Positions 3,181 through 46,800 of a stretch of DNA of 64,000 nucleotides are shown piece after piece; position 1 is the stretch's first letter; each line of letters starts with the position of its first letter. The translations under genes and the position numbers were made by a program. The DNA comes from Lamellibrachia columna. Taxonomy: Eukaryota; Annelida; Polychaeta; Sabellida; Siboglinidae. Where the stretch lies: NCBI GenBank assembly GCA_963662155.1, contig OY759265.1, positions 58,268,220 through 58,332,219 of the forward strand, written 5' to 3'. The notes beneath the pieces are model-generated. The model was given only the letters and a program-made list of their open reading frames with translations, made no database searches and was not told where the DNA came from.

Positions 3181-4083
<903 letters not shown>

Positions 4084-6039: not shown

Positions 6040-8125
6040 TTTCCTAACTCAACATGTCTTGGAACCAACCAGAGGTGGGAATGTGTTAGATTTAATTTTG
6101 TCTTCTCAAAATGAATTAGTTGACAATGTTAAAGTACACGAACCTTTGGGTTCAAGTGACCATAACCAAATCCATTTAAATATAAAAAGTAAAAACAGGG
6201 AATGCATAAAAAAACAATGGAGGAGGAACTTCAACAAAGGCAAATATAAAGAGATCAGAACATATCTTGCAGATATAGATTGGAATGCTGGACTTGTTTA
6301 AAATATGAGATTGAGGGCATTATTGAGAAATTTGCTCCATTAAGAAAACAAGGGAAAAGGTCCAGGAAGAAACACCTGTTAAAAGAGGCTATTAGAAAAA
6401 TTGCTCACAAACAGATGCTGTGGAGGATTTATAAACACACTGAAAATGAAGAAGACTACACAAACTACAAAGAGGCACTTAACCTAGCTACAACTGAAAT
6501 TAGAAAATCTAAAAGAACCTTTGAAAAAAAATTTGCAGGTAATATAAAAAGTGACAGCAAGAGTTTCTATGTTTATGTAAGGAGTAAACAGAAAGTTCGA
6601 GATAAAGTCGGACCACTCGAAAAAAACAGTGGAAACATAATTTCAGAGGGGTTTCAAATGGTCCTGAATGAGTATTTCAGCTCAGTTTTTACCACAGAAG
6701 ATATCAGCTCACTTCCAGTTCCATTTACTAAATTTGAGGGCAATAAATCAGAACATTTGGGGCAGTTATTTGTAACCCCTGAAATGCTAGAAAAGAAAAT
6801 TAAGAAGATGAAAGATAATAAATCACCTGGAGTTGATGGGATACCACCAAAACTGCTTAAGAAAACTGTTGAGCAAATTAGTACACCACTTGCAAAAGTG
6901 TTTAACTTGTCACTAGAAGAAGGAATAGTTCCTTCAGAATGGAAAGAAGCAAACATTACGCCACTATTTAAGAAAGGATCAAGGAACAAACCAGAAAATT
7001 ACAGACCAGTGAGTTTAACATTAGTTGCATGTAAATTACTCAAAACATTAATTAGAGATCACATGGTGGAATTCCTTGTAAAACATAAATTAATAAATAC
7101 ATCTCAACATGGGTTCCTAAAAGCAAGGTCATGTCTAACCAATCTCTTATGTTTTTTGGAAGAAATTACAAAGTGGGTAGATGACGGGTCACCAGTGGAT
7201 GTTGTCTATTTAGATTTTCAGAAAGCTTTCGATAAAGTGCCACATCAAAATTTTTTACTTAAACTAAAAGCCCATGGTGTAGGTAATGATGTAATCAACT
7301 GGATAGAAAAGTGGCTTACACACAGAAGACAGAGAGTAATAGTAGATGGTGAGATTTCAAACTAGAAATGTGTTTTGAGTGGGGTACCACAGGGATCAGT
7401 ATTAGGCCCTATATTGTTTTTAATATAATGACATATCTAGCAAAGTACTTAAATTTGCAGATGACACAAAAGTATTCAGAAAGGTTACTAATGTTACAGA
7501 TAACCAAAGTTTACAGGATGTTCTAGATAAATTAGTTAAATGGTCAGAAAAATGGCAAATGTTATTCAATTTTGGGAAGTGTAATTGCATACACATAGGA
7601 CATTGAAAAATGGATGAAGAATATGAAATGGGGGATGCTGTACTAGGTAGAACCACACAAGAAAAGGACTTAAGTGTAACATTTAGTGCTGACATGAAAG
7701 TTTCAGAGCAATGTGGGATTGCTGCTTCGAAAGGAAATCCAATTCTAGGGCTAATTAGGAGAACTATCATGTATAAGGAGAAACAGCTAATTGTACCCCT
7801 GTACGAAGCAATAGTTAGACCACATTTGGAATATGGTATACAAGCATGGAGGCCGTATCGTAAGAAGGACATAGACAAGCTAGAAAGAATACAACGAAGA
7901 GCAAATAAAATGATTCCACAATTAAGAGACATTAGTTATGAAAGCTTATTACAATGTTGACAACACTAGAATAGTACTAAAATAGAAATGACAGATATAT
8001 TGTAAGGGCGGGCTACACATAGATGATAAAATTGTTGGACTATCAATAAGCCAATGGCTTCCTTGTCCACTTGCCATCTGGAACTTGTTGTTTGGGATGG
8101 CAATCTTGTTAAATCTTGTTAAAAG
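6040..8125 (+). mobile_element. CR1-like LINE copy 1, 5'-truncated and decayed
   Basis: This plus-strand copy begins inside the endonuclease domain (FLTQHVLEPTRGGNVLD, about 6048). It runs through reverse transcriptase to the family's 3' tail, which ends in two AATCTTGTT repeats at 8102-8121. RT blocks are readable: PENYRPVSL, LDFQKAFDKVPHQ and, after frame changes, FADDTKVF. It is dead: sequence is missing near 6297, TGG has become TAG near 7363, about 30 codons are altered near 7425, and about 300 bp between the C-terminal region and the final RAGYT are deleted near 7955. It diverges clearly from the copy at 38.8-43.7 kb and appears to be an older subfamily. Confidence 0.93.
6048..7980 (+). 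pseudogene. LINE ORF2 remnant (endonuclease C-terminus and reverse transcriptase)
   Basis: The ORF2 reading is split over 5960-6301, 6280-7365 and 7610-7960, with a change of frame and a premature TAG. The SDHNQIH endonuclease motif is present near 6158, and the fingers and palm of the RT are legible. The start and the catalytic Asn/Glu region of the endonuclease are missing because of 5' truncation. It is not expected to make a functional protein. Confidence 0.9.
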
Positions 8126-29579: not shown

Positions 29580-31190
29580 TAAATAATTTCAAATAAATTG
29601 AAAGGCTAAAATAAAATGTGGTTAAGAGACAGGTGTTAAATAAAAAGCTAAATAAATGAATTAAATAAATGAGTTATATAAAGAAGTTAAATAAATAAAT
29701 ACATTAAATTAAAAAAGTTAAAATAAACAACTACAATTAAGTAGATACATTAGATAAACATTATAAGTTAATCAGATAAGTTAACTTCGCGAAAGAGATG
29801 TGTTTTTTAGAATGACTTGAATACCGCAACGGAGTTGGCTTGCCTAACTGCGGGAGGCAGGGCGTTGCACAGTGTCGGCCCTGCCACAGAAAAGGCCCGA
29901 CGACCTTACCGGTCGAGATGGTACCGCGGTATAGTCAATACATGTTGATCGGTGGATCTCATTGTTCGGATGGGTATGTATGGAATCACTAGCGACAACA
30001 GATACACTAGGCAAAGATGATGCACAGCGCGAAACACAGGTAAAAGAAGCTTCAATTCGATTCGCTGACGAACAGGCAACCAATGTAAACTAAATAAAAC
30101 TGGTGTTATGTGATCTCGTCTGCGGGTTCCAGTAACCAGCCGTGCAGCGGAGTATTGAACCATCGGCAGTTTCCGCAGCTGCGTTTCGGGCAGTCCATAA
30201 AGCATAGCGTTGCCGTAGTCCAAGCGCGACATGACTGAAGCATGAATGATTGTTTTGTAAGCAGTGGTGGAAAGGCAATTCCTGATAGTTGCGATGCTGC
30301 GAATGTGACAGTATGCCACCTGGCAGACACGGCGTATCTGCGCCGCCATTGACATTGTGTCATCAAATACAAAACCGATGTCGTCGATAAACAGTTTCGG
30401 CGTGACGGAGCAGCCACAGACATCAATGACTAGGTCAACAGGAGGTTGAACACGTTTGCGATTCTGCGCAGCGGAAACGACGACGGCTTCCGTTTTACAC
30501 TCGTTAAGAAGAAGGTTGTGGGACACCATCCATGACTTTACATCGGCGGTACATCGCGATATGCGGTCAGTGACAGTTGTAGCATGCGCTGGCTGATCAC
30601 GCGGAAATTCAACATACAACTGGGTATCGTCAGCATACATGTGGTAACGGAGTTGGTGGAGTTCGAAGACATGGTTGAGCCCCAGACAGTAGATCGTAAA
30701 AACAAGGGTCCCAGCACGTTACCCTGCGGTACACCAAAGCATAAATCAACACTTCTTGAGATGAGGTGACGTTATCGACTTTAACAGCTTGCGTTCGCTG
30801 CGAAAGGTACGACTGCATCCAGCAGTGTGCGTTGTCACGTATACCAATTTCGTGCAGTTTGACTAGAAGCAGACGGTGATCGACAGTATCGAAGGCAGCA
30901 CTGAGATCGAGCAACACCAATATCACGGTATTCCGATTGTCGAGCGAATGTGGAATGTCGTCCTGTATACGAACGAGGTGAGCAGGACGATACGCACTCT
31001 GAAAGACATCGAAAAGATCATTCGCGTCCCTGTACTGCCGGATCTGCGATGCTACACACTTCTCGAGGAGGTTTGATATGAAACTCAGGTTGGATATCGA
31101 TCGGTAGTTGGACAGTATTTCAGGGTCGAGATCACTCTTCTTTAACAATGGTGTCACGATGGCGTGTTTCATAACAGCTGGCATTGTTAT
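29580..31190 (-). mobile_element. L2-like LINE (3' half), decayed
   Basis: A minus-strand reverse-transcriptase fragment. It begins at PAVMKHAIVTPLLKKSDLDP and shows NYRSISNLSFISNLLEK, VLLDLSAAFDTVDHRLLL and YADDTQLYVEF. Its C-terminal block includes LDYGNAMLYGLPETQLRKLP and SLHWLPVRQRIELKLLL. The D of DLSAAFD and the YADD pair are kept. On the left it ends in a TTTAATTTATTT-type tail (29590-29760), consistent with the 3' end. The QGSVLGP region near 30740 is frameshifted. Confidence 0.9.
29844..31184 (-). pseudogene. LINE ORF2 remnant (reverse transcriptase, L2-like)
   Basis: Split into two frames, 30630-31184 and 29906-30640, with a frameshift around 30640-30780 that removes the GVPQGS motif from the frame. 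The endonuclease is missing through 5' truncation at the foldback element. Confidence 0.88.
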
Positions 31191-32433: not shown

Positions 32434-32619
32434 ATAGCCTGGCTCAACAATAGCTATAGAAAACCTGCTACATAAGATAGTTGCTATCACTACGACTGTT
32501 GTGTAAAAATAAAATAAATGTATAATATTCACATTGTTACAACTGCCCCTCACAAGATAATACATTTATGTTTTGATTTACATAACTTCAAACGTAGTTC
32601 AGTTCATTTGTTACAACCC

Positions 32620-33385
32620 ACAGCAACTTAGAAACTTTGCAGTTGTATTATCTGTGCCTTTAACAATGCGTACTCGATAACAGTATATCTGCATGTGAAG
32701 AGGTTCATGAAAGCTAAAGGCTGAAGATCTGTCTCTAGTATGAATTCCGTACCGTACAAGTAACGTGTAACCGTTTAGTTGCCCAGAACAATCCCAAACA
32801 CTCGCGTTCAATTGTTGAATAGCAAGTCTCTGCCTCACTGAGCTTTCTACTGCTGACATATCCATACCATCATGCTCCTGTAACAGTGCATCACCCAAAC
32901 CTCCATCCGACGCATCGGTACGCAACACAAACTGCTTTTGGAAGTTAGGTAGTTTAAGGATTAGCGTTTGGGTCAGTTCTCTCTTTAAGGCTACATCATC
33001 ACCGTTATACTCATCGTCCCATCTAACATGATTAGGATCTCCTTTCTTCAGTCGATTTGTCAGTGGCTTTGCCTTATTGGCGTAGTTATCAATGAACTTT
33101 TGACAATACCCAACAGTGCCCAGAAACGACCTAAGTGCCTTTTTGGTTTCTGGCTTTCTCGTGCCTAGAATCTTTGCTAGCTTCTTATCCTGTGACTTTA
33201 TTTACCCACGTCCCACTAGGCCACTACATGTCCTAACAGGTCAAGTTCAGCATGTCCAATTTCACACTTAGACGGCTTGGCAGTCAAACCGTGTCGTCGT
33301 CACCTCAAGCACCTGTCGTATGGCTCTTATGTGGTCATCCCATGTCACTGTATGGGATACTATGTCATCCACATACGAGTCAAGT
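32620..33385 (-). pseudogene. Ty3/gypsy pol fragment (RT end and RNase H), decayed
   Basis: On the minus strand, out of one frame, these are visible in order: YVDDIVSHTVTWDDHIRAIR (RT catalytic YVDD near 33365), HGLTAKPSKCEIGHAELDLL, TKKALRSFLGTVGYCQKFI, FVLRTDASDGGLGDALLQEH (RNase H) and RIVKGTDNTTAKFLS. Stops and small indels break it. It is opposite in strand to the gag fragment, so the two derive from separate or rearranged insertions. Confidence 0.85.
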
Positions 33386-33600: not shown

Positions 33601-33974
33601 CGACTATTCAGGCCGAGCTGGTTCTGCATGATATAATTTAACCAAATTGTTACAAGAAAATTACAATAACTGAACAAACAATATGTAATAAGTATACAAT
33701 ACGAGCAAACTGACTGAAGATGCCTACAGAGAACCCTCTGTGCAGCCTTTGTCTTCTAACTGTTACCCACACTATAGCAAAACAAGAAAGCTAATACTGC
33801 ATCATCTTGTAAACACAGTAGTAAGAATAATGTGCCCTTTAATAACACACAGCTGCTTTGTTTAACAAAAGTTAGTGACGTTGTGAGGCACAGTTGCCTT
33901 ACATACACACTTACATGATTTATTGACTAGCGACGTAAAATAAAAAGAATACTTACGCCAGTCGCTCTGGCAGT

Positions 33975-34050
33975 GTTCAAACCGTACAAATGCAATTTCG
34001 ATAGTCGACTTCTCGCGATGTTCAAACCGTACAAATGCAATTTAACAAGA
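33975..34050. repeat. 45-bp satellite, remnant units at the LINE copy B 3' junction
   Basis: Contains GTTCAAACCGTACAAATGCA twice, ending at AATTT|AACAAGATTTGCC where the minus-strand LINE tail begins. Same family as 38650-38800 and 43673-43885. Confidence 0.88.
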
Positions 34051-34699
34051 TTTGCCATCCAAGCCAAAGGCCCAGATGGCAAGTGGACAAGGAAGCCATT
34101 GGCTTATCGAGAGTCCAACAATGTTCATCTACTTATAACCAGCCCTCCTGAGATATGTGTCAACCTTGTTTTTAAACATATTCGCGCTACTAGCAGTTAC
34201 ACAATCTGTAGACAATTTGTTCCATTCATTTATTGTCCTCTGTGAGAACGAGTGCTTCCTGATGTTCAATCTACATTGATCCTTTACTAATTTTACCTCA
34301 TGTCCTCTAGTTCTGCTATCCTTCTTGAGTGAGAAAAACACCGTACAAATGCAATTTCGATAGTCGACTTCTCGCGATGTTCAAACCGTACAAATGCAAT
34401 TTAACAAGATTTGCCATCCAAGCCAAAGGCCCAGATGGCAAGTGGACAAGGAAGCCATTGGCTTATCGAGAGTCCAACAATGTTCATCTACTTATAACCA
34501 GCCCTCCTGAGATATGTGTCAACCTTGTTTTTAAACATATTCGCGCTACTAGCAGTTACACAATCTGTAGACAATTTGTTCCATTCATTTATTGTCCTCT
34601 GTGAGAACGAGTGCTTCCTGATGTTCAATCTACATTGATCCTTTACTAATTTTACCTCATGTCCTCTAGTTCTGCTATCCTTCTTGAGTGAGAAAAACA
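33982..34699. repeat. 359-bp perfect tandem duplication
   Basis: 33982-34340 and 34341-34699 appear identical by eye. Each contains part of the 45-bp satellite, the LINE 3' tail and the C-terminal ORF2 codons down to FFSLKK. It is a segmental duplication formed after insertion of the LINE. Confidence 0.92.
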
Positions 34700-36480: not shown

Positions 36481-37666
36481 CTAGTTTAAACAATGTTTAC
36501 TACCAAAAATATTTGTCATTGTACCCATGCCACTATCTACTGCTGCTGAAAGTTCGTCCGCGAATACTGCTGCCCCCTTTCCACTTAGATGAAGCCCATC
36601 CTTCATGTACATATCAGCACTCCCAACAAAACTTCCCCATAAATCCACAAATCCAACTTCCTCTTCCCTACAAAGCTTCTGGACTAACATATTAATTGCC
36701 ATCCCCCGACAATTTCGATATTTGAGACCCCTCCTGCCCATTACTGGTAAAATCCCTGACAGTATTACCTGTTCAACCCGCGTCTGTTTTAGTGTTCTGA
36801 CCAACTGCCTATATTTCCTAACCATGGCAGTTGTGCCCTCCCTCTCTACGTTATTTGTCCCTACGTGTACTAAAACAGATCCACCCTTACCCGGGCCTAC
36901 GATGTTTTCTACCCTCTCAGTTATCGCCTCTATTTTGGCTCCAGGCAAGCAGACCACCACATCATCTCCCTTGTTTAAGACTCTGTCGGTCTTCCTAACT
37001 ATCGAATCCCCCACAAACACCCTCGCTCTCTTCCTCACCCCCTCTATCACTGCTGCAGAATAGCTCTTCCGTTCGATCCCTTCCATCACATTCTGTCCTG
37101 ACCCCTTCCCTCCTGTCTCCTTCGCTCCTGCCTCCCCCACTTCCCCCTCCTTCGCTCTTGTCTCCCCCACTCCCCTCTCCTTCACTCCGGTTATTTTCCC
37201 TCCCGTCTCCCCACTCCCTTCTCCTTCCCTCCTGTCTCCCCTACTCCCCTCTCCTTCACTCCGGTTGTCTTCCCTCACGTTCCTTTCCTTCCCGTCTCCT
37301 TACGTCCTGTCTCCCTACGACCTGTCACCTTCCCTTCTCTCAGCTTCCTCCCAGGCTGAGATGAGCTCTCCCTAGCATATTTCGTGTCTTTCCCCACTTT
37401 ATCATTTACTGTTCCCCCACCGGAACTACTGGCACAACCCCCCGTTCCCTTCCCACCATTGCCACACCGAGCAGCCTCAGCTCTTCCAACTCCACTTCTA
37501 GTTCCTTCATCTTCGTACATTCCCTACACTCAAAACTAAAACTATCTACCTGGACCTCAGCCCAGGACTTCTCGCACCCAGACTTGGCGAATTCCACCCA
37601 GTTACTGCAACTGCCACAAATTAAGTGCCTTGTGACTTTTAACTGCCGTTTGCACGGCGCCATCAT
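36481..37666 (-). pseudogene. LINE ORF1 remnant, copy B
   Basis: Starts MMAPCKRQLKVTRHLICGSC like the intact copy but is spread over three frames (37406-37666, 37275-37520, 36481-37278). The esterase half is readable: VFVGDSIVRKTDR, HVGTNNVEREG and DGLHLSGKGA keep the Ser, Asn and Asp/His positions. The end keeps TTTAAACTAG, the same junction as the intact copy. Confidence 0.92.
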
Positions 37667-38239: not shown

Positions 38240-38649
38240 TTGAGTCCGGGAAAAAATACTACCTCTGTTAACAAAAACGGTTTCTTAATATATGTCTACA
38301 AGAAGTTTGTGAAAAATATATGTATAATAGTAATACTTATTCTTATTCTAACCAATATTCCAATGTTACTGACTATTCACTATGCTATCTCAATTTTCGA
38401 ATGTTAAACAACCCTATTAACGCTCGCTGACTTCCTTGAGTCCGAAACTAAGTTACGGTACAATACTGCCTCTGACTTATAATTAACAAAACCTGTTCCC
38501 TAATATATGTCTACAATATGTTTATGTATAATATATATATGCAATAGTAATACTTATTCTATTTGATATTCGATGTTTTTCTATAAATTCTCTTCACCAA
38601 TTTCAAATCGTTGCTGCACCAAGTCAATATCCGCTTTGTTTCAGTAGAC

Positions 38650-38800
38650 ACCTTCTTGCGATGTTCAAACCGTACAAATGCAATTTCAGTAGTCATCTTC
38701 TCGCGATGTCCAAACCGTACAAATGCAATTTCAGTAGTCACCTTCTCGCCATGTTCAAATCGTACAAAAGCAATTTCAGTAGTCACCTTCTCGCCATCTA
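38650..38800. repeat. 45-bp satellite between the two head-to-head LINEs, about 3.5 units
   Basis: Units of TTCAAACCGTACAAATGCAA, TTTCAGTAGTCACC and TTCTCGCGATG in the plus orientation. Both LINE 5' ends abut this stretch. Small ORFs on each strand (FKPYKCNFSSHLLAM) are repeat translations. Confidence 0.92.
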
Positions 38801-38817: not shown

Positions 38818-39397
38818 GGACTTGGTGCAGCGACTTGAATTTGGTGTAGATAATTTACAGAAAAACGCGGTATATCAAATAGAATAAGTATTACTATTGA
38901 ATATATATTATACACAAACGTATTGTAGACATATATTAGGAAACAGGTTTTGTTAATTATTAGTCAGAGGGAGTATTTTAGAGTAAGTTAGTTTCGGATT
39001 CTGTCGGGGAATTCAGCGAGCGATAATAAGGTTGTTTACTATTCGAAAATTGAGATAGCATAGAGTAGTGAATAGTTTACATTGGCTAATATATATATAT
39101 AAGATACAGTGATCTATTTACTTAAATTACATACATAAGGTAATATCTGACATAGTGGTAGTAAACGTTTTCGGTAAAAAGGAATTAACAGCAGGATTTT
39201 AGCGTAAATTAGTACACACTGACTTCGTTGTTTTGTTACACAGTGTTCTCCGTATTCGCTAGGTGGCAGGTTTTTTGTTTCTCATGCGAGGTTAATAGAA
39301 GACACAGTTAGCAAGTATATTAGACTAAAGTGTTCTTTTGATCACAAAAACAGCCTTATTCAAGGCTAACGTAGCAAACTAATTAAAATTAAATTGT
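38818..39397 (+). promoter_or_regulatory. 5'UTR / internal promoter region of the intact LINE
   Basis: Starts GACTTGGTGCAGCGACTTG. It contains one copy of an approximately 200-bp block (GAATAAGTATTACTATTG through GTTTACATTGGCTAATAT) that is present twice in tandem in copy B, then a short (TA)n and a block shared with copy B up to ATGATGGC. Promoter function is inferred from the position and from what is known of LINE 5'UTRs. Confidence 0.6.
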
Positions 39398-40690
39398 ATG
39401 ATGGCACCGTGCAAACGGCAGTTAAAGGCCACAAGGCACTTAATTTGTGGCAGTTGCAGCAACTGGGTGGACTTCGTTAAGTCTGGGTGCGAGAAGTCCT
39501 GGGCTGAGGTCCAGGCAGATAGTTTTAGTTTTGAGTGTAGGGGATGTACGAAGATGAAGGAACTAGAGGTGGAGTTGGAAGAGCTGAGGCTGCTCGTTGT
39601 GGCAATGGTGGGAAGGGAACAGGGTGGTTGTGCCAGTAGTTCCGGTGGGGGAACAGTAGATGATAAAGTGGGGAAAGACACAAGAGATGCTAGGGAGAGC
39701 TCACCGCAGCCTGGGAGGAAGCTGAGGGGAGGGAAGGTGACAGGTCGTAGGGAGACAGGACGTAAGGAGACGGGAAAGAAAGGAACGGGAGGGAAGACAA
39801 CAGGAGCGAAGGAGAGGGGAGTAGGGGAGACAGGAGGGAAGGAGAAGGGAGTGGGGGAGACAGGAGGGAAGGAGAAGGGAGTGGGGGAGACAGGAGGGAA
39901 GGAGAAGGGAGTGGGGGAGACGGGAGGGAAAACAACTGGAGTAAAGGAGAGGGAAGTGGGGGAGACGGGAGGGAAAACAACCGGAGTGAAGGAGAGGGAA
40001 GTGGGAGAGACAAGAGCAAAGGAGTGGGAAGTGGGGGAGACAGGAGCGAAGGAGACAGGAGGGAAGGGGTCAGGACAGAATGTGATGGAGGGGATCGAAC
40101 GGAAGAGTTATTCTGCAGCAGTGATAGAGGGGGTGAGGAAGAGAGCGAGGGTGTTTGTGGGGGATTCGATAATTAGGAAGACCGACAGAGTCTTAAACAA
40201 GGGAGATGATGTGGTGGTCTGCTTGCCTGGAGCCAAAATAGAGGCGATAACTCAGAGGGTAAAAAACATCGTAGGCTCGGGAAAGGGTGGATCTGTTTTA
40301 GTACACGTAGGGACAAATAACGTAGAGAGGGAGGGTACAACTGCCATAGTTAGGAAATATAGGCAGTTGGTCAGAACACTAAAACAGACGCGGGTTGAGC
40401 AGGTAATACTGTCAGGGATTTTACCTGTAATGGGCAGGAGGGGTCACAAATATCGAAATTGTCGGGGGATGGCAATTAACATGTTAGTCCAGAAGTTATG
40501 TATGGAAGAGGAAGTTGGATTTGTGGATTTATGGGGAAGTTTTGTTGGGAGGGCTGATATGTACATGAAGGATGGGCTTCATTTAAGTGGAAAGGGGGCG
40601 GCAGTATTCGCGGACAAACTTTCAGCAGCAGTAGATAGTGACTTGGGTACAATGACAAATATTTTTGGAAGTAAACATTCTTTAAACTAG
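39398..40690 (+). CDS. LINE ORF1 protein: Cys-rich (PHD-like) finger plus SGNH esterase
   Basis: 430 residues. The N-terminus has Cys17-x2-Cys20, Cys31 and Cys47-x2-Cys50, a PHD/zinc-ribbon-like arrangement, followed by a short Glu/Leu-rich helix (KELEVELEELRLL). Residues about 100-225 are low-complexity Gly/Lys/Glu repeats (KGVGETGGKE). The C-terminal half is an SGNH hydrolase: GDS with Ser257, GTNN with Asn307, and DGLH with Asp392 and His395. CR1-group ORF1 proteins commonly carry this PHD-esterase pair, which is thought to aid RNP or membrane handling; its exact role is uncertain. The reading ends TCT-TTA-AAC-TAG, placing a -1 slippery heptamer directly before the stop. The start is supported by the same MMAPCKRQLK in copy B. 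Confidence 0.95.
   Translation: MMAPCKRQLKATRHLICGSCSNWVDFVKSGCEKSWAEVQADSFSFECRGCTKMKELEVELEELRLLVVAMVGREQGGCASSSGGGTVDDKVGKDTRDARESSPQPGRKLRGGKVTGRRETGRKETGKKGTGGKTTGAKERGVGETGGKEKGVGETGGKEKGVGETGGKEKGVGETGGKTTGVKEREVGETGGKTTGVKEREVGETRAKEWEVGETGAKETGGKGSGQNVMEGIERKSYSAAVIEGVRKRARVFVGDSIIRKTDRVLNKGDDVVVCLPGAKIEAITQRVKNIVGSGKGGSVLVHVGTNNVEREGTTAIVRKYRQLVRTLKQTRVEQVILSGILPVMGRRGHKYRNCRGMAINMLVQKLCMEEEVGFVDLWGSFVGRADMYMKDGLHLSGKGAAVFADKLSAAVDSDLGTMTNIFGSKHSLN
40681..40690 (+). promoter_or_regulatory. Candidate -1 ribosomal frameshift site TTTAAAC followed by TAG
   Basis: TTTAAAC at 40681-40687 is in the X-XXY-YYZ register of ORF1 (T-TTA-AAC), followed at once by the ORF1 stop TAG. A -1 slip reads TTT-AAA-CTA-GAA-GTG and enters ORF2. 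Downstream, CTAG (40708-40711) can pair with CTAG (40739-40742), extended by GGT/GCC, with GTG/CAC outside it. This is a modest stem. Copy B keeps the heptamer and the stop. Confidence 0.7.
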
Positions 40691-43566
40691 AAGTGCAGGG
40701 GGGTTACCTAGAGGTGTCTCAAGCAGAACAAGAGGCCACTAGCACAGATAAACCAATATCAAATCATCCGAAAAACATCACTGAAAAAGGTTATAGATGC
40801 GTATGTTTAAATGCAAGGAGCATAGTAAATAAGAAAAACGAATTAAACATTATGGTAGAAGATATTGACCCTCACATAATTGGTATAACTGAATCATGGG
40901 CCAACATAGATATAACAGATGCTGAATTAAGACTGACAGGATATGTAATGTTTAGGAAAGATCGAATAGGAAGAAGGGGCGGGGGAGTTATTTTATATGT
41001 TAAAGAATCTATTCAGGCTTATGAAATAAAACTAGAAAGGGAAGCAGATTGCGATGAAGCTGTTTGGTGCAAAATTGTTTCAGGAAATTCAAAATTAACT
41101 ATTGGATTAGTTTACCGAAGTCCAAACATAAACGAAGAGGACAACACAAAAATAAAAAACGCTATAAAGGAAGTTAGTAAAGGGGAATGTATCATAATGG
41201 GAGATTTTAACCATGGACACATACAATGGAATTCTCTAGAGAGCACAGGGTTTGAGGACCAACAATTTCTATTTTTAATCCAGGATAGCTTTCTTACTCA
41301 GCACGTACTAGAACCAACCAGGGGAGAAAATGTATTAGATATAGTTTTGTCATCACAAAAAGAATTAGTGGACAATGTAAAAATATTTGAACCATTGGGT
41401 AATAGTGACCATAATCAAATACATTTTGACATCAATGTAAAATCAGAAAGTAAAAATAAGAAAACGTACAAGAGAAACTTCCACAAAGGTAACTACAAAG
41501 ATATGAGAAAATACTTAGCAAAGCTAGATTGGAATAACATGCTGATGAATAAGACCGCAATTGAATGTTGGAATATTCTAAAATATGAAATTGAGAGTAT
41601 CATCGATAAATTTGTTCCCTTCCAAAAACAAGGAAAACGGTGTAGAAAGAAACACTTGTCAAAAGAGGCTATTAGAAAAATAATGCTAAAACAAACTATG
41701 TGGAGGGTTTATAGGCGTACCAGAAAGGACGAAGACTATGCAAAATACAAAGAGGCACTTAATGCAGCTACAACTGAAATCAGACAATCTAAAATAAGCT
41801 ATGAGCAAAAACTAGCATGTAACATAAAAAATGACAGCAAGAGTTTTTATGCATATGTCAGGAGTAAACAAAACGTACAATACAAGGTTGGACCTCTAGA
41901 AGACAGTGCTGGAAATATAATATCACAGGGGTTTTTAATGGCGGAAGACCTAAATGGTTACTTCAGTTCAGTGTTTACCAAAGAAGATATTAGTTCATTA
42001 CCAGTTGCTGATGCTAAATTTCAGGGGGCTAAATCTGACTATTTAGGTCCGTTAGTTGTAACTCCAGAATTGGTAGCTAAGAAAATAAAGGCAATGAAGG
42101 ATAACAAATCACCGGGAGTGGATGGGATTCCTCCAAAATTACTAATGGAAACAGTAGAACAAATCAGTATACCACTTGCAAGAGTATTCAACTTGTCATT
42201 AAAAGAGGGAGTTGTTCCGTTTGAATGGAAAGAAGCAAACATCATACCATTATTTAAAAAGGGTTCGAGAAATAAGTCAGAGAATTACAGACCAGTGAGT
42301 TTAACGTCAGTGATTTGTAAATTATTAGAAAGGTTAATTAAAGACCATATGGTGGACTTCCTCGTTAAGCATAAATTATTAAATTCATCTCAACATGGAT
42401 TCCTTAAAGCGAGGTCATGCTTAACAAATATGTTATGTTTTTTGGAAGAAATCACTAAGTGGATAGACGTGGGATCGCCAGTAGATATTATCTACTTAGA
42501 TTTTCAGAAAGCTTTTGACAAAGTGCCACATCAAAGATTACTACTTAAATTAAAAGCCCATGGTATCGGGGATAGCATAACTGACTGGATAGAACAATGG
42601 CTGACTGACAGAAGACAACGAGTTGTAGTAGATGGAGAAGTTTCAAATTGGAAATCGGTTTTGAGTGGGGTACCTCAAGGATCAGTATTAGGACCTATAT
42701 TATTCTTAATTTATATCAAAGACTTGGACGACAGTATAACAAGTAACGTACTGAAATTTGCGGATGACACAAAACTGTTTAGAAAGGTTAATACTGATGG
42801 TGATAAACAACATTTACAAAACGATCTAGACAGATTAGTGAAATGGTCTGAGAAATGGCAGATGTTGTTCAATTTTGGGAAATGTAAATGCCTACATACA
42901 GGACATAGGAACTTGAATGTAAACTATAGAATGGGAGATACTGTTCTGGGTACTACTGTAAAAGAAAAGGACTTAGGAGTTACAATAAGCGCTGATATGA
43001 AAGTTTCAGAGCAGTGTGGTATTGCAGCTTCAAAGGGTAATCAAATTCTTGGATTGATTAGAAAAAACATAACATACAAGGGAAAAAAGTTAATTATACC
43101 TCTTTATAAAGCAATAGTTAGACCTCATTTAGAATACTGTATACAAGCATGGAGACCATATCGTAAGAAGGATATAGATACGCTTGAACGCATACAAAGG
43201 AGAGCAACTAAAATGATTCCAGAACTGAGAGACCTTAGTTATGAAGAACGCCTGAAAGAATGTGGTTTAACAACTCTAGAGACAAGGAGGTTAAGAGGAG
43301 ATCAGATTGAAGTTTTTAAGATATTGAATGGGTATGAAAATATTGATAGAAATATGTTTTTCTCACTCAAGAAGGATAGCAGAACTAGAGGACATGAGAT
43401 AAAATTAGTAAAGGATCAATGTAGATTGGACATCAGGAAGCACTCGTTCTCACAGAGGACAATAAATGAATGGAACAAATTGTCAACAGATTGTGTAACT
43501 GCTAGCAGCGTGAATATGTTTAAAAACAAGGTTGACACATATCTCAGGAGGGCGGGCTATAAGTAG
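40687..43566 (+). CDS. LINE ORF2 protein: APE-type endonuclease and reverse transcriptase
   Basis: 959 codons counted from CTA at 40687, in the -1 frame relative to ORF1, ending TAG at 43564-43566. Endonuclease motifs: Asn42 (LNARS), Glu69 (TESW), Asp173/Asn175 (GDFNHGH) and Ser240-Asp241-His242. RT motifs: NYRPVSLTS, LDFQKAFDKVPHQ, SGVPQGSVLGP and the catalytic FADD (Asp693-Asp694). A C-terminal region follows with RRATKMIPELR and ends RRAGYK. There is no RNase H. The frame has no ATG before the catalytic Asn; the first is in NELNIM, downstream of it. The product is therefore best explained as a fusion to ORF1 by frameshifting, with non-AUG initiation or re-initiation as alternatives. All catalytic residues are present. 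Confidence 0.93.
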   Translation, partial: LEVQGGYLEVSQAEQEATSTDKPISNHPKNITEKGYRCVCLNARSIVNKKNELNIMVEDIDPHIIGITESWANIDITDAELRLTGYVMFRKDRIGRRGGGVILYVKESIQAYEIKLEREADCDEAVWCKIVSGNSKLTIGLVYRSPNINEEDNTKIKNAIKEVSKGECIIMGDFNHGHIQWNSLESTGFEDQQFLFLIQDSFLTQHVLEPTRGENVLDIVLSSQKELVDNVKIFEPLGNSDHNQIHFDINVKSESKNKKTYKRNFHKGNYKDMRKYLAKLDWNNMLMNKTAIECWNILKYEIESIIDKFVPFQKQGKRCRKKHLSKEAIRKIMLKQTMWRVYRRTRKDEDYAKYKEALNAATTEIRQSKISYEQKLACNIKNDSKSFYAYVRSKQNVQYKVGPLEDSAGNIISQGFLMAEDLNGYFSSVFTKEDISSLPVADAKFQGAKSDYLGPLVVTPELVAKKIKAMKDNKSPGVDGIPPKLLMETVEQISIPLARVFNLSLKEGVVPFEWKEANIIPLFKKGSRNKSENYRPVSLTSVICKLLERLIKDHMVDFLVKHKLLNSSQHGFLKARSCLTNMLCFLEEITKWIDVGSPVDIIYLDFQKAFDKVPHQRLLLKLKAHGIGDSITDWIEQWLTDRRQRVVVDGEVSNWKSVLSGVPQGSVLGPILFLIYIKDLDDSITSNVLKFADDTKLFRKVNTDGDKQHLQNDLDRLVKWSEKWQMLFNFGKCKCLHTGHRNLNVNYRMGDTVLGTTVKEKDLGVTISADMKVSEQCGIAASKGNQILGLIRKNITYKGKKLIIPLYKAIVRPHLEYCIQAWRPYRKKDIDTLERIQRRATKMIPELRDLSYEERLKECGLTTLETRRLRGDQIEVFKILNGYENIDRNMFFSLKKDSRTRGHEIKLVKDQCRLDIRKHSFSQRTINEWNKLSTDCVTASSVNMFKNKVDTYLRRAGYK

Positions 43567-43672
43567 ATGAACATTGTTGGACTCTCGATAAGCCAATGGC
43601 TTCCTTGTCCACTTGCCATCTGGGCCTTTGGCTTGGATGGCAAATCTTGTTAAATCTTGTTAAATATTCAAA
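43567..43672 (+). terminator. LINE 3'UTR with a conserved RT-recognition-type hairpin
   Basis: TTGCCATC (about 43613) and GATGGCAA (about 43637) form an 8-bp perfect stem around a loop with an inner GCC-TTT-GGC. It is followed by ATCTTGTTAAATCTTGTTAA. The stem is kept at 8.07-8.10 kb (copy 1) with a different loop. Conserved 3' hairpins plus short terminal repeats are what stringent LINE RTs recognise; here this is inference. Confidence 0.7.
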
Positions 43673-43885
43673 CCGTACAAATGCAATTTCAGTAGTCACC
43701 TTTTCGCGATGTTCAAACCGTACAAATGCAATTTCAGTAGTCATCTTCTCACGATGTTCAAACCGTACAAATGCAATTTCAGTAGTCACCTTCTCGCTAT
43801 GTTCAAACCGTACAAATGAAATTTCAGTAGTCACCTTCTCGCCATGTTCAAACCGTACAAATGCAATTTCAGTAATCTCCTTCTC
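43673..43885. repeat. 45-bp satellite, about 5 units, right of the LINE
   Basis: Continues the family seen at 38650-38800. At about 43885 it changes into the 50-bp satellite through the shared module CAGTAGTCACCTTCTCGCGA. Confidence 0.93.
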
Positions 43886-46800
43886 GCGACATACCACTGG
43901 CCGCCTCTTACTACAATTGTAGTAGTCTCCTTCTCGCGACATACCACTGGCTGCCTCTTACTACACTAGCAGTAGCCGCCTTCTCGCGACATACCACTGG
44001 CCTCCTCTTACTACACTTGTAATAGTCTCCTTCTCGCGACATACCACTGGCCTCCTCTTACTACACTTGTAGTAGTCACTGGCCTCCTCTTACTACACTT
44101 ATAGTAGTCACCTTCTCACGACATACCACTGGCCGCCTCTTACTACACTTGTAGTAGTCACCTTCTCGCGACTTACCACTGGCCTCCTCTTACTACACTT
44201 GTAGTAGTCGCCTTCTCGCGACTTACCACTGGCCTCCTCTTACTACACTTGTAGTAGTCTCCTTCTCGTGACTTACCACTGGCCTCCTCTTACTACACTT
44301 GTAGTAGTCTCCTTCTCGTGACTTACCACTGGCCTCCTCTTACTACACTTGTAGTAGTCTCCTTCTCGCGACATACCACTGGCCTCCTCTTACTACACTT
44401 GTAGTAGTCACCTTCTCGCGACTTACCACTGGCCTCCTCTTACTACACTTGTAGTAGTCGCCTTCTCCCGACATACCACTGGCTGCCTCTTACTACACTT
44501 GTAGTAGTCTCCTTCTCGCGACATACCACTGGCCTCCTCTTATAACACTTGTAGTAGTCGCCTTCTCACGACATACCACTGGCCTCCTCTTACTACACTT
44601 GTAGTAGTCGCCTTCTCGCGACATACCACTGGCCTCCTCTTACTACACTTGTAGTAGTCACCTTTTCGTGACATACCACTGGCCGCTTCTTACTAAACTT
44701 GTTGTAGTCACCTTCTCGCGACATACCACTGGCCTCCTCTTACTACACTTGTAGTAGTCGCCTTCTCACGACATACCACTGGCTGCCTCTTACTACACTT
44801 GTAGTAGTCTCCTTCTCGCGACATACCACTGGCCTCCTCTTATTACACTTGTAGTAGTCGCCTTCTCGCGACATACCACTGGCCTCCTCTTACTACACTT
44901 GTAGTAGTCGCCTTCTCGCGACATACCACTGGCCTACTCTTACTACACTTGTAGTAGTAACCTTCTCGCGACATACCACTGGCCGCCTCTTACTAAACTT
45001 GTTGTAGTCACCTTCTTGTGACATACCACTGGCCTCCACTCACAACACTTGTAGTAGTCACCTTCTTGCGACATACCACTGGCCACCTCTTATTGCACTT
45101 GTAGTAGTCACCTTCTCGCGACATACCACTGGCCACCTCTTACTGCACTTGTAGTAGTCACCTTCTCGCCACATACCACTGGCCTCCTCTTACTACACTT
45201 GTAGTAGTCACCTTCTCGCGAAATACCTCTGGCCGCCTCTTACTACACTTGTAGTAGTCACCTTTTCGCGACATACCACTGGCCACCTCTTACTACACTT
45301 GTAGTAGTCACCTTTTCATGACATACCACTGGCCTCCTCTTACTACACTTGTAGTAGTCACCTTTTCGTGACATACTACTGGCCTCCTCTTACTACACTT
45401 GTAGTAGTCACCTTCTCGTGACATACCACTGGACGCCTCTTACTACCCTTGCAGTAGTCACCTTCTTGCGACATACCACTGGCCGCCTCTTACTACACTT
45501 GTAGTAGTCACCTTCTCGTGACATACCACTGGACGCCTCTTACTACACTTGTAGTAGTCACCTTCTCGTGACATACCACTGGACGCCTCTTACTACACTT
45601 GTAGTAGTCACCTTCTTGCGACATACCACTGGATGCCTCTTACTACACTTGTAGTAGTCACCTTCTCATGACATACCACTGGCCGCCTCTTACTACCCTT
45701 GCAGTAGTCACCTTCTTGCGACATACCACTGGACGCCTCTCACTACCCTTGCAGTAGTCACCTTCTTGCGACATACCACTGGCTGCCTCTTACTACCCTT
45801 GCAGTAGTCACCTTCTTGCGACATACCACTGGATGCCTCTTACTACACTTGTAGTAGTCACCTTCTCGCGACATACCACTGGCTGCGTCTTACTACACTT
45901 GTAGTAGTCACCTTCTTGCGACATACCACTGGCCTCCTCTTACTACACTTGTAGTAGTCACCTTCTCGCGACATACCACTGGCCGCTTCTTACTACACTT
46001 GTAGTAGCCACCTTCTCGCGACATACCACTGGCCTCCTCTTACTACACTTGTAGTAGTCGCCTTCTCACGACATACCACTGGCCGCCTCTTACTACACTT
46101 GTAGTAGTCACCTTTTCGCGGCATACCACTGGCCTCCTCTTACTACACTTGTAGAAGTCACCTTCTCGCGACATACCACTGGCTGCCTCTTACTACACGT
46201 GTAGTAGTCACCTTCTCGCGACATACCACTGGCTGCCTCTTACTACACTTGTAGTAGTCACCTTCTTGCGACATACCACTGGCCTCCTCTTACTACACTT
46301 GTAGTAGTCACCTTCTCGCGACATACCACTGGCCGCCTCTTACTACACTTGTAGTAGTCGCCTTCTCGCGACATACCACTGACCGCCTCTTACTACACTT
46401 GTAGTAGTCACCTTTTCGTGACATACCACTGGCCTCCTCTTACTACACTTGTAGTAGTCAACTTTTCGTGACATACCATTGGCCGCTTCTTACTACACTT
46501 GTAGTAGTCACCTTCTCGCCACATACCACTGGCCTCCTCTTACTACACTTGTAGTAGTCAACTTTTCGTGACATACCATTGGCCGCTTCTTACTACACTT
46601 GTAGTAGTCACCTTCTCGCGACATACCACTGGCCTCCTCTTACTACACTTGTAGTAGTCGCCTTCTCACGACATACCACTGGCCGCCTCTTACTACACTT
46701 GTAGTAGTCACCTTCTCGTGACATACCACTTGCCTCCTCTTACTACACTTGTAGTAGTCACCTTCTCGCGACATACCACTGGCGACCTCTTACTGCACTT

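Follow-up and report, generated by a model that had tools for sequence, protein, structure and literature searches.

How is the second protein of a LINE made when the frame that encodes it has no usable start codon of its own? This question is raised by a CR1-like element in the 64-kb window (the whole stretch of DNA analyzed here), in which the end of ORF1 overlaps the beginning of ORF2 at a slippery heptamer. An earlier note on this DNA had read the arrangement as an ORF1-ORF2 fusion produced by frameshifting. Our analysis supports that reading at the level of sequence, through the register of the heptamer, the -1 offset of ORF2, the absence of a usable AUG and the retention of the junction in a second family. 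The endonuclease/reverse transcriptase (RT) is very probably made by programmed -1 frameshifting at UUUAAAC-UAG, as an extension of the ORF1 protein.

The element and its ORF1-ORF2 junction

The element, its two frames and the parts of the junction are located in the window as follows:

38950..43655, plus strand: LINE with the junction (from comparison by blastn with the other window copies; the 5' end is somewhat further left)
39398..40690, plus strand: ORF1, 430 codons, translation ending ...GSKHSLN-UAG
40675..43566, plus strand: ORF2 frame, offset -1 from ORF1, 963 codons between stops, first AUG at 40852
40681..40687, plus strand: U UUA AAC slippery heptamer in zero-frame register, kept in families 2 and 3
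40688..40690, plus strand: ORF1 UAG stop directly 3' of the heptamer, kept in families 2 and 3
40691..40703, plus strand: AAGUG followed by CAGGGGGG, a short spacer and G-run after the stop

By blastn within the window, the 3' ends of the element's other copies stop near 43655. The C-terminal part of ORF1 contains an SGNH/GDSL esterase domain (Pfam Lipase_GDSL_2, PF13472, E 9e-10), and the nearest solved relative of ORF1 is the ORF1-encoded protein 4c1b (E 2.5e-22). ORF2 carries an APE endonuclease and an RT (Pfam RVT_1, E 8e-32; Exo_endo_phos_2, E 8e-14), with Pfam matches to PF14529, PF03372 and PF00078. A structure prediction for ORF2 was set aside at a mean pLDDT of 37. The traits of the CR1/L2 lineage, an esterase (type IV) ORF1 and an APE endonuclease/RT in ORF2, are both present. 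We use the name CR1-like on the basis of overall likeness rather than of an RT tree, because an esterase ORF1 is known also from RTE and Penelope elements, according to the accessible part of PMC3905857. The octamer repeat TTCTGTGA given for the 3' end of avian CR1 in the accessible part of PMC2612034 is absent from the element, which has TCTTGTTAAA in one or two copies at its 3' end. Scanning the window for Rfam families and tRNAs gave no match.

Within ORF1, positions 39755-40067 of the window form an in-frame 15/30-bp tandem repeat (KEKGVGETGG-like). Homologues of ORF1 vary in length from 378 to 464 aa among the 120 listed, for which the copy number of the tandem repeat is likely part of the cause. 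The window holds two copies of the element arranged head to head, the plus-strand copy (38950-43655) and a minus-strand copy with its heptamer at 36490. Both are flanked and separated by the same 45-bp satellite (33974-34402, 38639-38794 and 43667-43889). The 3' end of the minus-strand copy lies in a 359-bp tandem duplication at 33981-34699 (two copies, 100% matches), and a large 50-bp satellite array is found beside the element at 44077-46000 (38.5 copies in the stretch scanned). Open frames at 32611-33201 and 29906-31190, both on the minus strand, resemble by eye Ty3/gypsy pol and the reverse transcriptase of another LINE.

Direct reading of the sequence and a script both gave the end of ORF1 as ...AAA CAT TCT TTA AAC TAG. 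The earlier description of TTTAAAC in the zero-frame register, with the stop as the next codon, was thereby confirmed, as was the statement that ORF2 is open at -1 from 40675 and overlaps ORF1 by 16 bases. The first feature of a -1 signal, a heptamer of the form X XXY YYZ in zero frame at the overlap of the two frames, is present at this site. TTTAAAC occurs in frame only once across ORF1 and ORF2 of the element. Strong in-frame -1 heptamers occupy 2 of 429 positions in ORF1 and 5 of 962 in ORF2, and the occurrence of one exactly before the stop is therefore unlikely by chance. The accessible part of PMC5009743 places U_UUA_AAC in the group of -1 heptamers at which mammalian ribosomes slip most readily.

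A further feature of -1 signals, a downstream frame at -1 without a usable AUG of its own, was found as well. An AUG scan placed the first AUG of ORF2 in family 1, the family of the element, at codon 60 of the frame. When counting starts at the TTT of the heptamer, family 1 has its first AUG at codon 58 and family 2, a diverged relative described below, at codon 55. In profile alignments, the Asn of the motif CLNARS (codon 46) falls on N14 of human L1 ORF2p, which we take to be a catalytic residue. The first AUG lies 3' of the CLNARS Asn in both family 1 and family 2, and an ORF2 begun at this AUG would therefore be without part of the endonuclease. Initiation at an AUG, which cannot yield the whole endonuclease in either family, was rejected as the origin of ORF2. 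The earlier note had named a clear AUG start for ORF2 as evidence against its reading; neither family has a usable one.

The junction in other copies, families and animals

Copies of family 1 were sought in the host assembly (879,693,805 bases, or 880 Mb). The 12-mer TCTTTAAACTAG occurred 1994 times (58 times for the reversed control), and a pattern with fixed flanks and twelve open positions recovered 1914 junctions (control, 0). Among the 100 listed of these 1914, the heptamer was intact in 96 and altered in 4, and the UAG was lost in one of the 96 heptamer-intact junctions. The codon before UUA in family 1 junctions was TCT, TGT or TAT. Twenty loci chosen by the 12-mer, together with 8 more, had the same arrangement, with varying decay. 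The other copy in the window has it too:

36484..36490, minus strand: TTTAAAC of the second window copy (TGT TTA AAC TAG, same -1 arrangement)

In this minus-strand copy, a TAA interrupts the ORF2 frame at the 14th codon, counted from TTT.

A search with the ORF2 protein P0136 (~74% identical) involved no selection for the heptamer. It produced 87,975 candidates, of which 48 were scored, and 46 of the 48 were given a 963-aa open frame. From these 48 ORF2 matches 30 loci were cut, 29 of them (all except L043) with a readable junction. TCTTTAAACTAG was present in 29 of 29, and ORF2 was open for 961 codons from the heptamer in 28 of 29; ORF1 was open from its MAPCK start within the flank in 11 of 29. 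The frame lengths reported by the tool are not always strict: L038 has TAG as the sixth codon from TTT, though its frame figure was given as 963. The earlier note had singled out two kinds of copies as speaking against a fusion. None of the first kind, with a disrupted heptamer and both ORFs intact, was found among the 29 readable junctions drawn by ORF2 match, nor did the copies read include any of the second, intact but with ORF2 at a different offset from ORF1. Because these copies are young and near-identical, retention of the heptamer within family 1 is not evidence of selection.

More diverged copies belong to family 2, represented in the window by one truncated copy:

6041..7942, plus strand: family 2 copy, 5'-truncated, 76% DNA identity to the element

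The query for family 2 was the ORF2 protein from the part of this copy at window positions 6250-7362, and the heptamer was not used. Of its 110 scored matches, 23 are listed as having a 972-aa frame free of internal stops (the tool's figure). Pieces of 141-257 bases, chosen by their distance from the match, were read. The junction is GAT TAT TTA AAC TAG in two copies and AAT TAT TTA AAC TAG in one; in the three copies read, the -1 frame gives LFKLDAQGELTEK, or LFKLDTQGELTEK in one copy. The earlier note had proposed conservation in relatives as a check, and UUUAAAC-UAG, its register and the -1 offset are present in 3 of 3 family 2 copies read, with flanks that differ. Families 1 and 2 agree in 10 of 10 bases of TTTAAACTAG, compared with 10 of 33 before it and 19 of 32 after it (ungapped, anchored on the heptamer). 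The p value for this match at the junction is about 0.0008, an approximate figure because of the anchoring on the heptamer. The base before UUA stays T while its codon changes (TCT, TGT and TAT, for Ser, Cys and Tyr). Conservation of heptamer and offset in a diverged relative, another feature of a -1 signal, is thus seen in family 2. Two family 2 copies, L060 and L061, have UAGAUG at the stop; the zero-frame AUG in this hexamer is not a start for ORF2, because its frame runs only M-R-R-G-N-stop.

In family 3, the junction is CAT TAT TTA AAC TAG and the -1 frame gives LFKLEAQGGYLEM. This is one copy, nearer to family 1, and the resemblance between the two families is so close that the match at the junction carries little weight (p about 0.15). 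The pattern used to select this copy includes the heptamer itself, so the independent support from it is limited to its two frames.

Beyond this genome, the ends of ORF1 proteins were compared. A search for homologues of ORF1 of the window lineage found 1123, of which 120 were listed, and 117 of these 120 end in S/C-L-N; the exceptions to the LN end are P0109 and P0110, which read through, and P0114. A bird ORF1 bait found 528 homologues with 120 listed. Among these 120, 86 end in LN and 84 in A/S/C-L-N. The 34 without LN are, by eye, mostly truncated or out of frame; the stop is read through in P0295, P0296 and P0318, and other end residues occur in P0250, P0256, P0272, P0274 and P0301 (Zosterops). 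For 20 homologues the animal is named: birds (Limosa, Pelecanus, Dryobates, Hirundo, Grus, Zosterops and Pitangus), turtles, a lizard and a frog (Pelodiscus, Chrysemys, Chelonia, Natator, Caretta, Malaclemys, Lepidochelys, Salvator and Ranitomeya). Of these, 19 end in ALN and P0301 (Zosterops) in ASN. When the 190 columns of the ORF1 alignment are ordered by identity, the Leu comes 4th and the Asn 14th.

The LN ends, known in those animals from proteins alone, are what GCT-, TCT- or TGT-TTA-AAC would give. We consider it likely, with less assurance than the frameshift in the element itself, that UUUAAAC-UAG is an ancient joint shared by CR1 LINEs of the esterase type in this genome and in those of birds, turtles, lizards and frogs, and that the RT of these elements is made only as a -1 fusion. 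The ORF2 protein P0147, of another family, has QLFKLDSQGG, that is FKL, in the -1 frame. If its ORF1 ends in LN, the site would have to be TTTAAAY followed by TAG. P0130 (QLVKLVSQGG) would need GTTAAAY if its ORF1 ends in LN, and this counts against the frameshift reading.

No DNA related to CR1 was found in viral contigs, prokaryote contigs or phages. Plasmids gave 448 records, all with best places below 60% identity, and the 20 listed are mostly bacterial reverse transcriptases. One protein, P0291, is named a Klebsiella pneumoniae SGNH/GDSL hydrolase and is a CR1-type ORF1 ending in RALN; it likely represents animal DNA in a bacterial assembly.

Sequence downstream of the heptamer

The earlier note had also proposed a stem downstream of the heptamer and the prediction of pseudoknots in this region. 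The stem was not borne out: the MFE of 40692-40800 has a z-score of 0.18, and 110 of 200 shuffles fold at least as well. For the 90 nt 3' of the heptamer, the MFE was matched or bettered by 63 of 200 shuffles and the best hairpin stem by 92 of 200. The best H-type pseudoknot, under a simple scoring of our own, was matched or bettered by 148 of 200, and none beats the shuffles in family 1. A stimulatory stem-loop or pseudoknot about 5-9 nt downstream, a further feature of a -1 signal, was thus not detected above shuffles in family 1, and this weighs against the frameshift reading. Over the first 100 nt after the heptamer, the fold of family 2 is different from that of family 1 and weaker (-8.9 versus -15.1 kcal/mol).

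The motif CAGGGGG lies at the same distance from the stop in families 1 and 2; it does so in family 3 as well, where the copy was picked by a pattern containing CAGGGGG. As the sole shared downstream candidate element, it may be coding (Gln-Gly) or may be an RNA signal. The pattern TTTAAACTAG-N5-CAGGGGG was found at 3323 places in the host genome (reversed control, 0), and among the 100 listed of these the N5 was AAGTG in 63, ATGCG in 16, AAGCG in 13 and others in 8. With a stop codon and a G-run following the heptamer, a strong downstream structure is possibly not needed.

Translation of ORF2 and comparison with known systems

In the proposed mechanism, the majority of ribosomes would decode UCU-UUA-AAC, terminate at UAG and set free the esterase protein ORF1p. 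A smaller share would shift back by one base, the Leu-tRNA moving from UUA to UUU and the Asn-tRNA from AAC to AAA. The slipped ribosomes would continue with CUA-GAA-GUG..., resulting in a fusion of ~1389 residues (430 from ORF1 and 959 from ORF2). We infer the slippage itself, its rate, its stimulator and the activity of the fusion as an enzyme. Slippage at a low level would suit an enzyme that is required in small amount.

Alternatively, ORF2 might be translated after the ORF1 stop by termination-reinitiation or internal non-AUG initiation, for example at the GUG of codon 7, the heptamer being incidental. This explanation is unlikely, though it has precedent: unconventional, ORF1-dependent initiation of ORF2 is the picture given for SART1 and L1 in the accessible part of PMC2881922. 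A GUG stands at codon 7 in family 1, where the predicted ORF2 proteins P0121-P0123 begin, and the family 2 copy L059 has ACG, a possible near-cognate start, at the same position. However, both L060 of family 2 and the copy of family 3 have GCG, neither AUG nor GUG, at this codon, and no AUG is located 5' of the endonuclease core. Nor does initiation of this kind explain why family 2, amid different flanks, has retained UUUAAAC together with its register and the stop directly behind it.

It is considerably less probable that the ORF1 protein needs the Leu-Asn-stop end for its function, with the heptamer as a by-product. The Leu and Asn belong to the most conserved residues of the protein, and those found before them, A, S and C, are all small. 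However, the preceding residue can be Tyr as well as Ser or Cys, each with T as the third base of its codon, and families 1 and 2 use the same codons for Leu and Asn although Leu has six and Asn two. ORF2 would still be without a start. The least credible explanation is that any ORF1 end may look slippery by chance, a rare indel or RNA splicing being what connects the two ORFs. It can appeal to single heptamers being not rare in AT-rich coding DNA (the 2 of 429 and 5 of 962 positions above) but is disfavoured by the ten identical bases in the independently located family 2 and by an ORF2 open at -1 for 961 codons in 28 of the 29 copies drawn by ORF2 match.

Programmed -1 frameshifting, the preferred reading, has close parallels. 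In coronaviruses, as in the element, the frame downstream of the -1 site encodes the polymerase. Coronavirus-type sites (U_UUA_AAC, for example in IBV; PMC5009743, accessible part) have the identical heptamer in the same register as the element. A pseudoknot follows in coronaviruses, whereas none was found at the element's junction; the element further differs in having the zero-frame stop immediately after the heptamer, and in that the carrier is a LINE in genomic DNA. As given in the accessible part of PMC5009743, a 2003 survey had pol in the -1 frame in 28 of 51 animal retroelements. The Gag-Pol arrangement of animal LTR retrotransposons resembles that of the element, with a structural protein in the first frame and the rarer enzyme as its C-terminal extension; in the element, however, the first protein is the esterase-type ORF1p of a non-LTR element and not Gag.

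Among LINEs, the type IV elements of the CR1 lineage (PMC4120745 and PMC3905857, accessible parts) share with the element an esterase ORF1 and an ORF2 with APE and RT. CR1 has two ORFs, called "closely spaced" in a title cited in the accessible part of PMC4316615. The non-LTR cases of frame change in the accessible part of PMC5009743 are HeT-A, TART and mammalian LINEs. For the Drosophila telomeric elements HeT-A and TART, which are non-LTR like the element, frameshifting or an unknown frame change is invoked there. In HeT-A, unlike the element, frameshifting is needed for a Gag-like protein and no RT is encoded; how the product of TART is made is called unknown in the same source. L1 and SART1 (PMC2881922) and Zorro3 (PMC1965478), in the accessible parts of these sources, resemble the element in that their LINE RNA has two ORFs and the second is translated only through an unusual step. 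This step is described as internal initiation or reinitiation, in Zorro3 from an AUG that matters, whereas the element has no AUG before the endonuclease core and its frames overlap at a slippery site.

No description of ORF1-ORF2 frameshifting in CR1 was found in the open literature searched, in part as accessible text; the main CR1 papers lie outside that scope and a prior description is possible. Nor did the same literature, so far as accessible, give a mechanism for the translation of CR1 ORF2. The means by which LINEs translate ORF2 at a low, set ratio have long been in question. According to the accessible part of PMC4316615, CR1 outnumbers every other transposed element in birds, crocodilians, turtles and snakes. 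If the frameshift reading is true, the enzyme would be Gag-Pol-like in being physically tied to ORF1p, the rate of slippage would set the ratio of ORF1p to RT, and CR1 elements would become sensitive to host factors that influence -1 frameshifting.
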